Shown here one piece after another: positions 7,903 to 41,106 of a stretch of 41,259 nucleotides of DNA. Both the position numbers and the translations under genes were made by a program. The notes under the pieces are model-generated. The model ran no database searches and was not told the origin of the DNA. It saw nothing but the letters and a program-made list of their open reading frames with translations. The first letter of the stretch is position 1; each line of letters opens with the position of its first letter. This DNA comes from Kiritimatiellia bacterium (GTDB lineage: Bacteria; Verrucomicrobiota; Kiritimatiellia; RFP12; UBA1067). Where the stretch lies: the NCBI GenBank assembly GCA_017525225.1, contig JAFXTB010000104.1:1-41259 (forward strand). The letters run 5' to 3'.

Positions 7903-9258
7903 TCACGGAATCACCGCCGAACATTTGACACGGTATCCGAGGATTTCAAGATCCGTGCCGCTGCGCACGTAGGTCTCCGACGGCGCCGTGCTCTTCGTGC
8001 TGTATGCCGACCGGCATGCCGCCGCCGCGCTGTTGCGCGCACCTCCACGGGCGAAACGGACTTGGCCGTCGGCAGCCCCGACCTCCGGATCCATCGTGGA
8101 ATCGTGCGTGAAGATGCAATACCAGTCGAGGCACAGCTCATGGACAAGGCCTATCATGTCGTAGAGTCCCCAGTTGTTGGGCTTCTTCTGCCCGACGGAA
8201 AGCGGTTCGCCGACCGCAGGGCTGTTGTATGCATACCACGCGATCTCCATTAGATTGGCGTCGGCGCCTGTACCGGTGGCCAGCAGCTCCTTCCCGGAAT
8301 TCAGCGCCGACGACGTGCCGGCCCGGCAGGCGAACTCCCACTGCGCGGAAGTGGGTAGGTCGAACGTCGGCAGCCCCGTGATTTCGCGCAGTTTGTGCAT
8401 GGTGGAACCTACGGCCACCGTGGTATCCAGCGGCCAGACGCCGCCGTTGAGACCGTGCGCACTCTGACTGGACGCTCCGTAGCGCAGGCCGTTGTACGAT
8501 ATGCCGGTCCGCGGATTGCACGGATTGACCACGTTCGCCACGGATTCCCCGTAGATGCGCGAATGCTGCCAGCGCGTGACGGGGAACACGCCGATGTAGT
8601 AGTCGCTCTTGAGCGTGACGAGATGCGTCACCTCGTTCGTATAGCCCGCATCACGGCCCTTTTCGTTCTCGGGCGAACCCATGCGCCATGTCACGTTCGC
8701 CGCAGGGATCTTGCGCATCAGGAGCATGTCCTTGCGGTATTCATCGCTTTCGATGCCACCGGGGAGGGCGTCGGCGTCCGTATAGAAATACCGCGCCCCG
8801 GGAATGGCCAGGTCGCACACCATGTAGTCCGGCGGACAGGTCTTCGCCCACGCCTTCACCCTCGCGCGGAAGTTGCCGCCCGTTATGTAGCGGTCCGGCC
8901 AGTCGCGGTTCGGACGCCACACTATCGTGCGCGCACCCGGCAGCACCACCTTGTTGACATCGCCGCCCACGTTGCGGAAGTTGGCCGAGCCGATCGACGC
9001 CCAGGGGCCTTCGGCCGTCCCAGTGACATTGGTCTCGAAATCCACGGTGACGATGGCCGCCTCCTCGTTGTCGCCTTCGCCAAGCGTGTAGCCCACGCGC
9101 ACCACATGCGAGGCATCCTGCGAGATCGAGACGCTCTCTTCGGGTATCACGGGCGTAGCGCACAACATTGCAGGCGACATCGCGGCGATGATCGCAGTTC
9201 CAGCGCAGAGGGCGGCGGACAATCTCGCGCCGCGCATCGCCAGGATCGTAGGTTTCAT
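7903..9258 (-). CDS. Secreted SUMF1-domain protein (first paralogue, operon leader)
   Basis: 451 aa from the ATG at 9258, where AGGGAG stands 6 nt upstream; the ATG at 9264 would have no spacing. The signal peptide is long and Ala-rich. As in the paralogue, the N-terminal domain contains the identical VDFETNVTGTAEGPWASIG, and a SUMF1 domain follows (WRMGSPENEKGR, YIGVFPVTRWQHSRIYG, FDLPTSAQWEFACRAGT, WGLYDMIGLVHELCLDW, ARGGARNSAAAACRSAY). The FGE catalytic cysteine pair is again not visible. Identity between the paralogues extends to DNA around the shared motif (compare 7371-7410 with 8999-9044), so the duplication is fairly recent. It is the first gene after the G10 promoter. Confidence 0.88.
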   Translation of the reverse strand: MKPTILAMRGARLSAALCAGTAIIAAMSPAMLCATPVIPEESVSISQDASHVVRVGYTLGEGDNEEAAIVTVDFETNVTGTAEGPWASIGSANFRNVGGDVNKVVLPGARTIVWRPNRDWPDRYITGGNFRARVKAWAKTCPPDYMVCDLAIPGARYFYTDADALPGGIESDEYRKDMLLMRKIPAANVTWRMGSPENEKGRDAGYTNEVTHLVTLKSDYYIGVFPVTRWQHSRIYGESVANVVNPCNPRTGISYNGLRYGASSQSAHGLNGGVWPLDTTVAVGSTMHKLREITGLPTFDLPTSAQWEFACRAGTSSALNSGKELLATGTGADANLMEIAWYAYNSPAVGEPLSVGQKKPNNWGLYDMIGLVHELCLDWYCIFTHDSTMDPEVGAADGQVRFARGGARNSAAAACRSAYSTKSTAPSETYVRSGTDLEILGYRVKCSAVIP

Positions 9259-9331
9259 TTTCATCTCCCTTGAATCGGCACTTCAACCATCCACGACGGG
9301 AACCCATTTCCCATCGTGTGGAAACGTTGAT

Positions 9332-9361
9332 ATTATACCCCCCCCCCTGCGCTTTTTACAA
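9332..9361 (-). promoter_or_regulatory. Promoter with a G10 tract between -35 and -10 (candidate phase-variable switch)
   Basis: On the minus strand: TTGTAA (9356-9361), then AAAGCGCA, ten G (9338-9347) and TATAAT (9332-9337). The spacer is 18 bp with G10 and would be 17 bp with G9. It drives the SUMF1/small protein/SUMF1/esterase operon with a leader of about 65 nt. The second poly-G promoter at 41078-41106 has the same layout. Confidence 0.72.
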
Positions 9362-37005: not shown

Positions 37006-40000
37006 CTACTTGAAACTGAGGCAGATGCCGCGCGATCTGTGGTAGACGAGCCGGTTGCCGGCCCTCTCGACCGCCCACTTCTCATTCGCCCCCACGACGT
37101 TCGGAAGAGTGCTGGATGTCCAGTTCTCCGCCACGACGCTCAGTTTCTCGCAGGGCATGCCCGACACGTCGAGCGTAAGATCCACCGGATAGGCAACGCC
37201 GTCCGCAACATCGAGCTTGCCGCCGCACAGCTTGACCGTGGAATCGGGGATGGCCCCCGCCGCCGCGAGCTTCAGCACGCCGTTCGACACGACCGTATCG
37301 CCAGAATACGTGTTGGCTACGCCAAGCACCAGCGTGCCTTCGCCCGTCTTCACTATCCCGCCGCCAGCAGGATTGTCCGCCATCTGTAGCGATACGCAGC
37401 CCGACTTGCACTCGTTCAATATGTGGGCGTAGGCCGACGGGGCGGAAGTGTATCCGCTTCCCGGACACAGGACGCGCACGTTGGTCACGGAATGGGTCGC
37501 GCGATCGAACTCCGCCATGACCATGCCGTCGAGGCCACCCGCGCCATCGTACACATGAAGGAGCGGCGGCGCAACAAGCGCATAGCTGGCCATCGATGCC
37601 GTTGCCGAGGCGGATACGATCCCCTTTCCGGCCGGCGCCAGGAGTGGTGCGTAGAGATTCACCGTCTTACCGTTGGTGTCGAATGTCGCACCCTTTTCAT
37701 ATACCGTTACGCGGGCGACCTTTCTAGCGTCCGACGCGGAATCGCCGAAGATGTTGAGATTGTCCTTCAGCGCCTTGATCCTGCCGCCGTTCAGAGACAC
37801 AACCACCTCGCGCGTCGAATCATCGTTACACTTACGAAGCCCCGCGTACGTTGCGAACTCGCCGCCGTCGTTGATCACGAAACTCGTGCGTCCGCCAGTC
37901 ACATTGCAGAGTTCAAGCGAAGTATCCTTGGCGAACGTAAGCGACGCCTCGGGGCCGTCCACGATAAATTCGGCAAGGCCGTACTTGTAGTTGGAGCAGG
38001 TGCGGATCGTCATGTTGGTAACGACACCTTGTCCCTTGCGGATGTAGTAGCGAGCGACTGGAACACTAGTGTGGTTGTCAGCGCTGGTTGTCGACTTTCC
38101 CGCGCCGAAATACCAGTATGTTCCGTTCTCCCGCCTTGTAAACAACGCCTCGCCGCCATACTGCGCGAATGTCATATCGACCGTGCCCTGGTTAGTGCCC
38201 CAACTTGACATGCCAAGCTGTTTGTACGACCCGCGTGAAAGCTCCCAGTACGCCTGGCCCATATAGCCGAAGTAGGGCTTGCATTTGGCGCCGTTCGCCC
38301 CGCCTGCCCAGTTCACAACTTCGCCGTCATACTGGTACACGGCCCCCTGCGTCCTGTATCCGTTGCCGGTAATGTTGAAAAGCCCCGTCACGGAAGTGGT
38401 CTCGCCGGCGATCTCCAGAACGCCCGAACCGTACATTCCAGCCTTGCTGCCGTTGCCACCTATCAGGAAATTGTAATTGGATGCGTCGGGAGACGCAAGA
38501 CGGGAATTGGACAGCCGGGAGTTGCGGATTATCATGTGCCCACGATATTCGGAAAGCGAGTCGCTCGTCTGGAAACCGGACACAGCCGTAAGATTTCGCC
38601 GCCCGCCAATGATTATCGGCTCGTCGTCGTCCGAAATCGAGCCCGTCACGCCATCGAACACCACGGTCGCCGTCTTACCGGAACGGTAATCGCTCGAGAC
38701 TGTGCCACTTCCGAGCTTGAGATCGGTATTGCCGTTGAATTCGAGCGTGCCGGAGTACGACGCGAAGTAGACCTTCTGCGAGGGCGAACCTGTTACGATG
38801 AGCCTGTTGGTACCGTCGGAGCCAATGCCGAACGTGGACGAGGTGACGTTGGCGTCGGAAAGCGCAAGCGTATGGTCGCCGCTTTCCGATGTGTCCACGG
38901 CTATGACGGCGTTCGTCCCAAGCATAGCGAGTTTTGCCGAATTGGCGAGCGAAAGGATCTGCTCGTCGCTCCACGCCGTCTGGCCGCCCAACCCCGGCGC
39001 CTCCACGGGCACGGTGATGCGGTTCTCGTAGACCTCAACCTTGGAATAGTCGGGGATGGAACCTGGCCACATGGCATAGATCCACGCACCAGGAGTACCG
39101 TGCAGGATTGTCTTGCCGGTATAGTCGTTGTCCGGCGCCAGAAGATCGAAGCGCGTCGTACCGGAAACCTCCACATCCTGATCGCCCGTAATCTTCTGGA
39201 CCTTGTACGAAGCGCGACCATTGTCGTCGTACTGGATGGCGAAGCCGTTCAAGGTGATGGCCACCGGGGATGCGCTTGCGGACGTCTTCCCCTGGAACGT
39301 CAAGGTGACGTCGTTCAGGTCTGCGACGATGTCGAGGCTGCTTCCCGAAGCCATCGAAACGGATGTGAAGACGATATCCGCCTTGCCCTCGACGACGATC
39401 TTGCTGGCGCCCGATTCGTTGATCACGGGGAACGTCCAGCTGACCGGAGTATCGTCGCCGCCGATCACGCGGACCCTGCCGTTCTCAAGCAGGACGGAGT
39501 TTGCAAAGCTGCCGTCGCCCGAAAGCTCCAGGACGGAACCGGCGGACGACCTGATCGTCCCGGTAAACGTGTTCGCGCCCGTGAACCTCCATGCTCCGCT
39601 CGCGATATTGAGCGTCATGTTGGGATCCGCCATGGCAAGCGGCGTGGAGAAGGCGCCCACGCATCCGCTCGTGTTGTACAGCTTCACGACGTGCGCGCTT
39701 GACGTGTTCGTGGCGATGAAAGGCGTGGCGGACGTGAACGTGAGATCGCCAGTACCGGCATGCTCGAAGTGCGACGTGCCGGAGAGGGCGACCCTGAATT
39801 TCTTGTCAGAGGTCTCGCCAGCGCCGATGTAACGCAAGCGCGCGCCCGCCGATATGACGGCGGCTGTGCCGTTGGTGCCCATCTGGCTTTTCGCGTTCTC
39901 CATGCCGATGCCGGACGCTTCAAGACACCCTTCCGATATCTCCAGAACTCCCGGAATCAAGTTCGTTGGGCAGGTAAGGCGGAGCGTCCCCTCGCCCTTT

Positions 40001-41028
40001 TTGTTCATGGCTTCGCCCATCGGCGGCACTGGTGCGCTTACCAGATACGCCTCGATCATGGTGTCGATCCAGAGCAGTGTCCCGGCATCCACCGAATACT
40101 GGTTGTTCTTGCCGACGCCGCCTCCCCAGCCACAGCCGGCATGATAGCGTCCCGCGCCGGAGATCTTAGTGTCGCTCTGCACGGCGAAGCAATCGTAGCC
40201 CGCCGCAGCATCGCCGAAGTATCCAGCTGTGACGTCGATAAACTGGTCGGAGCCGTCCGGACGGTTCACGGTGATTCTGCGGAACGCCGTGCGTCCAGGA
40301 GAATAGTCGTATGTGATTTTGCCCGTTCCGGTCTGCTGGAGGAAGAGATTGTACTCCCCAGCCTTGCTGTACGGAAAATAATTTTTGAACCTGAAGTCGC
40401 CGGAGCCTTTGATGGTTGTTTTTTCGGTGGGGAAGTTGGCGGTCGTCGCCGCAAACGGATCTTGCGCGTTCGCGGTATACCCCACGTTCGATTCAAAGAC
40501 AAGTTCGCCTGCGGAATCGTTCTCGATCGTGCAGAGTATCGGGCTATCGATCCAGAATGCGCCTGTTCTCATCCGATATACGGAAGGCGTGTTGACGACA
40601 CTGCTTTCCACCTTGAAAGTGCCTCCATGGCCTATCGGCAGTACATCCTTGAACGCGAACTTCGGCGTGGTCGCGCCCGAGACGGTAACGTTGCTGACGC
40701 AGGCGAGCGTACCCATGTTGATCGTCGTGTTGGCGGTGGGCCTGTCGAAGATGGCCTGGTCCGCCTTGCAGCCGGAATATTCGTCGCCGTTCTTCAGCAC
40801 GCCCGGCACGGCATGGAAGCCGGGGTCGGACGAGTCCAGGCCTTCCACCTCCCAGTTGGCGGCGTTGTCCCACTGGCCGTTGGCGGCACCGGTCCAGTGC
40901 GCGGTGATCGGCGTTTCGCGATATGAACCTGTCGCCGCCTCGGCGACGGACAAGGCGTATATGGCGAAAGCGGACACAACAACCAGTCGCAAGGACATTG
41001 CGCCCAGGGTGGTATTCATAGCCTGCAT
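37006..41028 (-). CDS. Very large secreted passenger-type protein with autotransporter-associated beta-strand repeats
   Basis: 1340 aa; AGGAG lies 9 nt before the ATG at 41028 (an ATG at 41019 is an alternative). The signal peptide region is LRLVVVSAFAIYALSVAEA. The mature protein is Gly/Ser/Thr/Asn-rich, with beta-helix character. Its N-terminus (AHWTGAANGQWDNAANWE) is typical of passenger proteins of this phylum group. PATR-type units occur at about 340-370 (KKGEGTLRLTCP, GVLEISEGCLEAS) and about 1220-1262 (GIVKTGEGTLVLG, NTYSGDTVVSNGVLKL). No beta-barrel, cell-wall anchor or PEP-CTERM is present; the protein ends G-I-C-L-S-F-K. It is probably a surface adhesin or glycan binder, transcribed alone from the G9 promoter. 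Confidence 0.82.
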   Translation of the reverse strand: MQAMNTTLGAMSLRLVVVSAFAIYALSVAEAATGSYRETPITAHWTGAANGQWDNAANWEVEGLDSSDPGFHAVPGVLKNGDEYSGCKADQAIFDRPTANTTINMGTLACVSNVTVSGATTPKFAFKDVLPIGHGGTFKVESSVVNTPSVYRMRTGAFWIDSPILCTIENDSAGELVFESNVGYTANAQDPFAATTANFPTEKTTIKGSGDFRFKNYFPYSKAGEYNLFLQQTGTGKITYDYSPGRTAFRRITVNRPDGSDQFIDVTAGYFGDAAAGYDCFAVQSDTKISGAGRYHAGCGWGGGVGKNNQYSVDAGTLLWIDTMIEAYLVSAPVPPMGEAMNKKGEGTLRLTCPTNLIPGVLEISEGCLEASGIGMENAKSQMGTNGTAAVISAGARLRYIGAGETSDKKFRVALSGTSHFEHAGTGDLTFTSATPFIATNTSSAHVVKLYNTSGCVGAFSTPLAMADPNMTLNIASGAWRFTGANTFTGTIRSSAGSVLELSGDGSFANSVLLENGRVRVIGGDDTPVSWTFPVINESGASKIVVEGKADIVFTSVSMASGSSLDIVADLNDVTLTFQGKTSASASPVAITLNGFAIQYDDNGRASYKVQKITGDQDVEVSGTTRFDLLAPDNDYTGKTILHGTPGAWIYAMWPGSIPDYSKVEVYENRITVPVEAPGLGGQTAWSDEQILSLANSAKLAMLGTNAVIAVDTSESGDHTLALSDANVTSSTFGIGSDGTNRLIVTGSPSQKVYFASYSGTLEFNGNTDLKLGSGTVSSDYRSGKTATVVFDGVTGSISDDDEPIIIGGRRNLTAVSGFQTSDSLSEYRGHMIIRNSRLSNSRLASPDASNYNFLIGGNGSKAGMYGSGVLEIAGETTSVTGLFNITGNGYRTQGAVYQYDGEVVNWAGGANGAKCKPYFGYMGQAYWELSRGSYKQLGMSSWGTNQGTVDMTFAQYGGEALFTRRENGTYWYFGAGKSTTSADNHTSVPVARYYIRKGQGVVTNMTIRTCSNYKYGLAEFIVDGPEASLTFAKDTSLELCNVTGGRTSFVINDGGEFATYAGLRKCNDDSTREVVVSLNGGRIKALKDNLNIFGDSASDARKVARVTVYEKGATFDTNGKTVNLYAPLLAPAGKGIVSASATASMASYALVAPPLLHVYDGAGGLDGMVMAEFDRATHSVTNVRVLCPGSGYTSAPSAYAHILNECKSGCVSLQMADNPAGGGIVKTGEGTLVLGVANTYSGDTVVSNGVLKLAAAGAIPDSTVKLCGGKLDVADGVAYPVDLTLDVSGMPCEKLSVVAENWTSSTLPNVVGANEKWAVERAGNRLVYHRSRGICLSFK

Positions 41029-41077: not shown

Positions 41078-41106
41078 ATTATACCCCCCCCCTGCGTATT
41101 TGTCAA
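41078..41106 (-). promoter_or_regulatory. Consensus sigma70 promoter with a G9 tract in the spacer (candidate phase-variable switch)
   Basis: On the minus strand: TTGACA (41101-41106), AATACGCA, nine G (41084-41092) and TATAAT (41078-41083). Both hexamers are perfect consensus and the spacer is the optimal 17 bp, more than half of it the homopolymer. The leader before the passenger gene is about 45 nt. Loss or gain of one G changes the spacing to 16 or 18. Confidence 0.82.

Follow-up and report, generated by a model that had tools for sequence, protein, structure and literature searches.

A probable phase-variable poly-G promoter upstream of a large predicted secreted protein in a Kiritimatiellia bacterium, with similar promoters in many phyla

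The DNA analysed here (the window) is a stretch of 41,259 nt from the 4.2-Mb genome (180 contigs) of a Kiritimatiellia bacterium. It holds two genes for predicted secreted proteins, each preceded by a promoter-like element with a poly-G spacer:

41101..41106, minus strand: -35 box TTGACA, exact match
41084..41092, minus strand: G9 tract read from the sequence, 9 of the 17 spacer bases, adjoining the -10 box
41078..41083, minus strand: -10 box TATAAT, exact match
37006..41028, minus strand: 1340-aa predicted secreted protein with an N-terminal signal peptide, one PATR/autotransporter beta-strand repeat and the C-terminus GICLSFK
9332..9361, minus strand: second poly-G promoter, TTGTAA-AAAGCGCA-G10-TATAAT, spacer 18, weaker -35 box
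7903..9264, minus strand: 453-aa predicted secreted protein with an FGE-sulfatase domain, downstream of the second poly-G promoter

Read on the minus strand, 41106..41078 is ctaTTGACAAATACGCAGGGGGGGGGTATAATttatt, that is TTGACA-AATACGCA-G9-TATAAT, in which 8 nt and the G9 tract (GGGGGGGGG) together form a 17-nt spacer between a perfect -35 and a perfect -10 box, exactly as the first-pass annotation had described. When TTGACA-N17-TATAAT was searched for with up to two mismatches, this was the only match in the window, compared with 0.52 in shuffled sequences. The ORF at 41028..37006 starts 49 nt past the -10 box and has GGAG upstream of its ATG.

The product of this ORF had been called a large surface-type protein, a description that agrees with its signal peptide (called by a simple hydrophobicity test) and with the PATR repeat at residues 1226-1253 (E 4e-9), near the C-terminal end, but for which a translocator domain was found in neither Pfam nor NCBIfam. 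The protein is thus probably secreted and surface-bound, while its classification as an autotransporter (type V secretion) is not supported, because a single PATR repeat was present and the C-terminal translocator beta-barrel was found in neither database. The sister species yielded no close orthologue of the gene, and the genome collections searched contained no second genome with this locus; the protein matched a large PATR protein family over part of its length, mostly at 27-45% identity, which prevented an interspecies comparison of the promoter. We also observed that unrelated large secreted proteins share a short hydrophobic C-terminal tail whose last residue is R or K (CLSFK, VISFR, VLFR, FLLR, MIVR, VVSIK, IVVK), both in this genome (37006-41028, L275, L280, L281 and L282) and in relatives (L168, L169 and L172), and this tail is possibly a sorting signal.

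The sequence GGGGGGTATAAT occurs three times in the genome and never in the reversed control: in the promoter at 41106..41078, at 9343..9332 in the window, where it is part of a G10 tract, and at C115:16939. All three copies, 41084..41092 included, have GCA directly before the G tract. The second of them belongs to the poly-G promoter at 9361..9332, which had been overlooked in the first-pass annotation and lies 67 nt upstream of the gene for the 453-aa FGE-sulfatase-domain protein. Long G tracts are in excess more generally, with 20 G/C runs of at least 9 in the genome against about 3 expected by extrapolation from the fall-off of shorter runs. In the window, runs of G8 or longer number five against 2.0 in shuffles and are not rare by composition. 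Outside the window, the third promoter and two tracts of another kind were found:

C115:16922: third poly-G promoter, TTGACA-AAAACGCA-G9-TATAAT, before a 572-aa esterase-like protein
C102:3880 (L193): in-frame G10 tract, second FGE-domain protein
C128:211 (L275): in-frame G10 tract, 835-aa protein

Both G10 tracts lie in frame inside the signal-peptide regions of secreted ORFs (as SRGGG), and in both cases a stop codon in another frame follows directly behind the tract. Translational switches usually have this layout, and we consider C102:3880 and C128:211 to be candidate switches of this type. A further G9 tract immediately precedes the start of a prepilin-like gene (MKRGGFTLVEVL; C104:25392, L195), where it overlaps the last part of another prepilin-like ORF just before it; this tract is a possible translational coupling switch.

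Ordinary promoters of the same genome use 18-bp spacers as often as 17-bp spacers and favour G or A beside the -10 box, with G making up 57-65% in the two positions before it. Some spacers go further and are G-rich with interruptions: TTGACA-N- followed by CAGGGGGGTGGG, TAGGGGGAGGGG, CAGGGGAGAGGG, CAGGGATGAGGG or CAGGGGGGAAGG, together with similar 18-bp forms, precedes genes for secreted proteins, and a GCAGGAGGGTGG spacer precedes tRNA-Pro. Interrupted G-rich spacers of 17-18 bp thus stand mostly before secreted genes and once before a tRNA, alongside the pure tracts and with the same kind of gene. Interrupted runs in 18-bp spacers were noted at C85:4121, C99:2645, C115:4477, C25:40027, C9:5613 and C51:164, most of them before secreted proteins. 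The interrupted G-rich promoters may be relatives of the pure tracts that have become stabilised, or may form a promoter class of their own.

Across 346 genomes of the class, G runs adjoining TATAAT behind TTGACA had lengths of G3 in 34 cases, G4 in 12 and G5 in 5 (51 total), and runs of G6-8 were absent from all 346 genomes. Runs of G9-10 were observed five times, against 0.08 expected from a smooth tail, so that in place of a smooth fall-off there is an excess of long pure runs. Among promoters of the class with GGG before TATAAT, a spacer of 18 was commoner than one of 17. In genome G051, pure tracts adjoin TATAAT and interrupted ones are absent there. In the class, ten Gn-TATAAT sites are immediately followed by a good ORF, and the N-termini encoded there, judged by eye against a background of 33-42% by the simple test, looked like signal peptides, with one ambiguous case; PATR and PEP-CTERM proteins are among the products. 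The sites L173, L176 and L181 were set aside as probable chance matches, because they either lack a good ORF or seem to lie within a gene.

Related genomes of the genus g21, in the same order, allowed tract lengths to be compared, with the caveat for all such comparisons that homopolymer lengths can be wrong in metagenome assemblies. G077 and G085 are 96-98% identical where compared, and at four orthologous promoter tracts, found by a targeted pattern search, all four differ in length while their flanks are conserved: the first is G10 in one and G9 in the other with 200 of 200 flanking bases identical, and the further pairs are G10/G12, G11/G12 and G6/G9. Runs of 6-7 G at orthologous sites were equal in 4/10, the rest having changed by substitutions or small changes, numbers too few for a comparison of rates. 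For a 222-aa PEP-CTERM protein, orthologues or close relatives in G063, G071 and G081 still have an upstream tract of G9-G11, while the boxes around it are different; the g21 orthologues are 41-51% identical and the tract is kept in three of four, G074 having short runs only. Comparison of the promoter of a 224-aa PEP-CTERM protein in G183 gave nothing useful. Five g21 genomes contain 25 matches to TTGACN-G6, against 2 in reversed controls, most often before PEP-CTERM proteins, and the tracts in this genus stand directly behind TTGAC, not adjoining the -10 box. We further observed a promoter of the form AATAAGTCTTTATGC-TTGAC-G9..12 repeated before PEP-CTERM proteins (loci L403-L427), each g21 genome carrying a family of similar switch-like cassettes. 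Two contigs of G085 (C3:20-57 and C20:83; L416 and L427) begin at 20-30 G directly behind TTGAC. Perhaps the G085 assembly breaks at tracts, through length mixtures or as a sequencing artefact, and the G20 and G30 tracts at contig ends are probably artefacts.

A scan for TTGACA-N5..12-G8+-N0..2-TATAAT, restricted to poly-G and to one genome per species, matched at least 119 stretches from many phyla, with at least 125 sites. Clostridia, Bacilli, Saccharibacteria, spirochaetes and others are represented among the matches listed; the tract is G9 in 61/125 of these sites and adjoins TATAAT in 103/125. By the same simple hydrophobicity-type test that was used for ORFs of the bacterium studied here, 75 of the 95 downstream ORFs among the matches listed encode secreted or membrane proteins, compared with 153/588 (26%) of neighbouring ORFs (p 7e-23). 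Spacings of 15, 16, 17, 18, 19 and 20 were found among the matches listed at 15, 23, 7, 28, 35 and 12 sites, respectively. For ordinary promoters with perfect boxes in these stretches, the commonest spacing is 17 (13/25), which is seen in only 7/125 of the poly-G sites listed (p ~1e-7). This avoidance of 17 bp across phyla suggests that spacing is likely the variable that matters, and the simplest reading is that spacing would act as the switch in these promoters and that assemblies usually show them away from the optimum. In several cases among the matches listed, homologous site pairs differ by one in tract length. Viral contigs yielded only three sites, so phages do not appear to be a main source.

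We regard it as likely that 41106..41078 acts as a porA-type contingency (phase-variable) promoter, in which slippage alters the spacing of the boxes. Phase variation had been proposed when the sequence was first annotated, and the proposal gains support from the recurrence of the architecture before secreted proteins, from run lengths that are bimodal and unlike those expected by chance, from the differences between orthologous tracts in relatives and from the cross-phylum pattern. What we infer for this locus is the slippage itself, its effect on transcription and its benefit. Slipped-strand mispairing during replication would add or remove G's between the -35 and -10 boxes, and the changed distance would alter binding of RNA polymerase with the housekeeping sigma factor. 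G9, the assembled length with its spacer of 17, would be a strong state. The original annotation had expected both G8 and G10 to weaken the promoter; for G8 this probably stands, but since 17-bp and 18-bp spacers are equally common in this genome, G10 (spacer 18) need not be weak and is probably active too, and G8 or fewer and G11 or more would be the weak forms. Cell lineages would then make much or little of the 1340-aa protein, randomly and reversibly, and the benefit may be that surface or secreted proteins vary in the face of phages, hosts or substrates.

Given the interrupted G-rich spacers before secreted genes, the main rival is a static class of G-rich promoters, in which G/A-rich spacers are preferred beside TATAAT, either because they make the promoter stronger or because they serve as a regulator site common to secreted-protein genes; G9 would then simply be the purest form, its length being irrelevant. 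Part of the G-richness may indeed be such a static preference, as the interrupted spacers before secreted proteins and tRNA-Pro and the G bias of the two positions before the -10 box suggest, and where each position is G with a frequency of about 80%, pure runs of 9 would not be rare among such sites. A static class does not, however, sit well with the bimodal run lengths of the class and their gap at 6-8, with pure tracts that occur in G051 without interrupted ones adjoining TATAAT, with the translational G10 tracts of the same genome or with the variable length of orthologous tracts in the related genus, and we judge it unlikely as the explanation of this locus.

Length could also switch expression by a route other than spacing, through a G-quadruplex or a regulator-binding site that is altered by the length of the tract, a route that has been considered for opc- or tprL-like promoters. 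The poly-G/poly-C tracts of the tprL and opc promoters are not strictly between the boxes (PMC7864442), and the g21 tracts, placed directly behind TTGAC and away from the -10 box, are in keeping with this idea. Here, in contrast, both boxes are perfect and the tract is wholly inside the spacer, and the trough at 17 bp across phyla points to spacing, which makes such a route quite improbable. That a chance G9 came to lie between chance boxes, or that its length was misassembled, is a reading that draws on the window's composition, by which runs of G8 or longer are not rare, and on the error-proneness of homopolymers in assemblies. We nevertheless hold it to be very improbable indeed: chance is rejected because the reversed control for GGGGGGTATAAT in this genome was empty against three copies of GCA-G9/10-TATAAT, and the perfect boxes at 17 bp, the gene with a ribosome-binding site 49 nt away and the recurrence in other genera and phyla speak against it as well.

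Slippage-controlled spacing, which we thus prefer, is of a kind already known. The promoter of Neisseria meningitidis porA carries poly-G between the -35 and -10 boxes and is strongest near 17 bp (summarised in PMC7864442), and that of Treponema pallidum tp0126 has poly-G in the same place with an optimum of 17 nt (PMC7864442). At 41106..41078, likewise, a homopolymer of about 8 or more (G9) lies wholly between sigma-70-like boxes about 17 apart, where its length sets the spacing, and the gene behind it encodes a putative surface-type protein, as judged from the signal peptide and the PATR repeat. Unlike porA, the bacterium and gene are unrelated, the boxes are perfect consensus and the tract adjoins TATAAT; tp0126 shares the layout and is backed by experiments, whereas the promoter described here is backed by comparison. 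Homopolymer tracts have been surveyed as general regulators, mainly as poly-A/poly-T inside coding genes (Orsi 2010; PMC2831843), and these are similarly slippage-prone and near the 5' end of the gene, which fits the in-frame G10 tracts at C102:3880 and C128:211 but differs from a tract in a promoter spacer. In Akkermansia muciniphila, a gut bacterium that may share its phylum with the Kiritimatiellia bacterium, long G/C repeats occur inside capsule genes, without a described promoter spacer, and mononucleotide phase variation was only suggested (PMC3048395). The literature searched contained no report of phase variation for Kiritimatiell- and only this suggestion for Akkermansia, and in that literature the earlier statement that no case had been described in this group holds. 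New are the lineage, how many loci there are and the recurrence across phyla with its spacing signature.

On balance, we favour the view that poly-G spacer promoters, mostly with G9, are a widespread and largely undescribed class of surface-protein switches among uncultured bacteria from gut and environment, spread over many phyla; because the state most often assembled departs from the 17-bp optimum, most cells would be low-expression, and the promoter at 41106..41078 would have been caught ON. The genome studied here would hold at least five poly-G loci of the contingency type, namely three promoters and two signal-peptide tracts, and relatives in the same order carry many more poly-G loci before PEP-CTERM proteins. 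A simple pattern search returned more than 100 such promoters across phyla, and the trough at 17 bp provides a test from genomes alone, by which switches of this type could be mapped throughout the bacteria. For many gut symbionts, a single assembly may thus give a wrong picture of the surface that is expressed.
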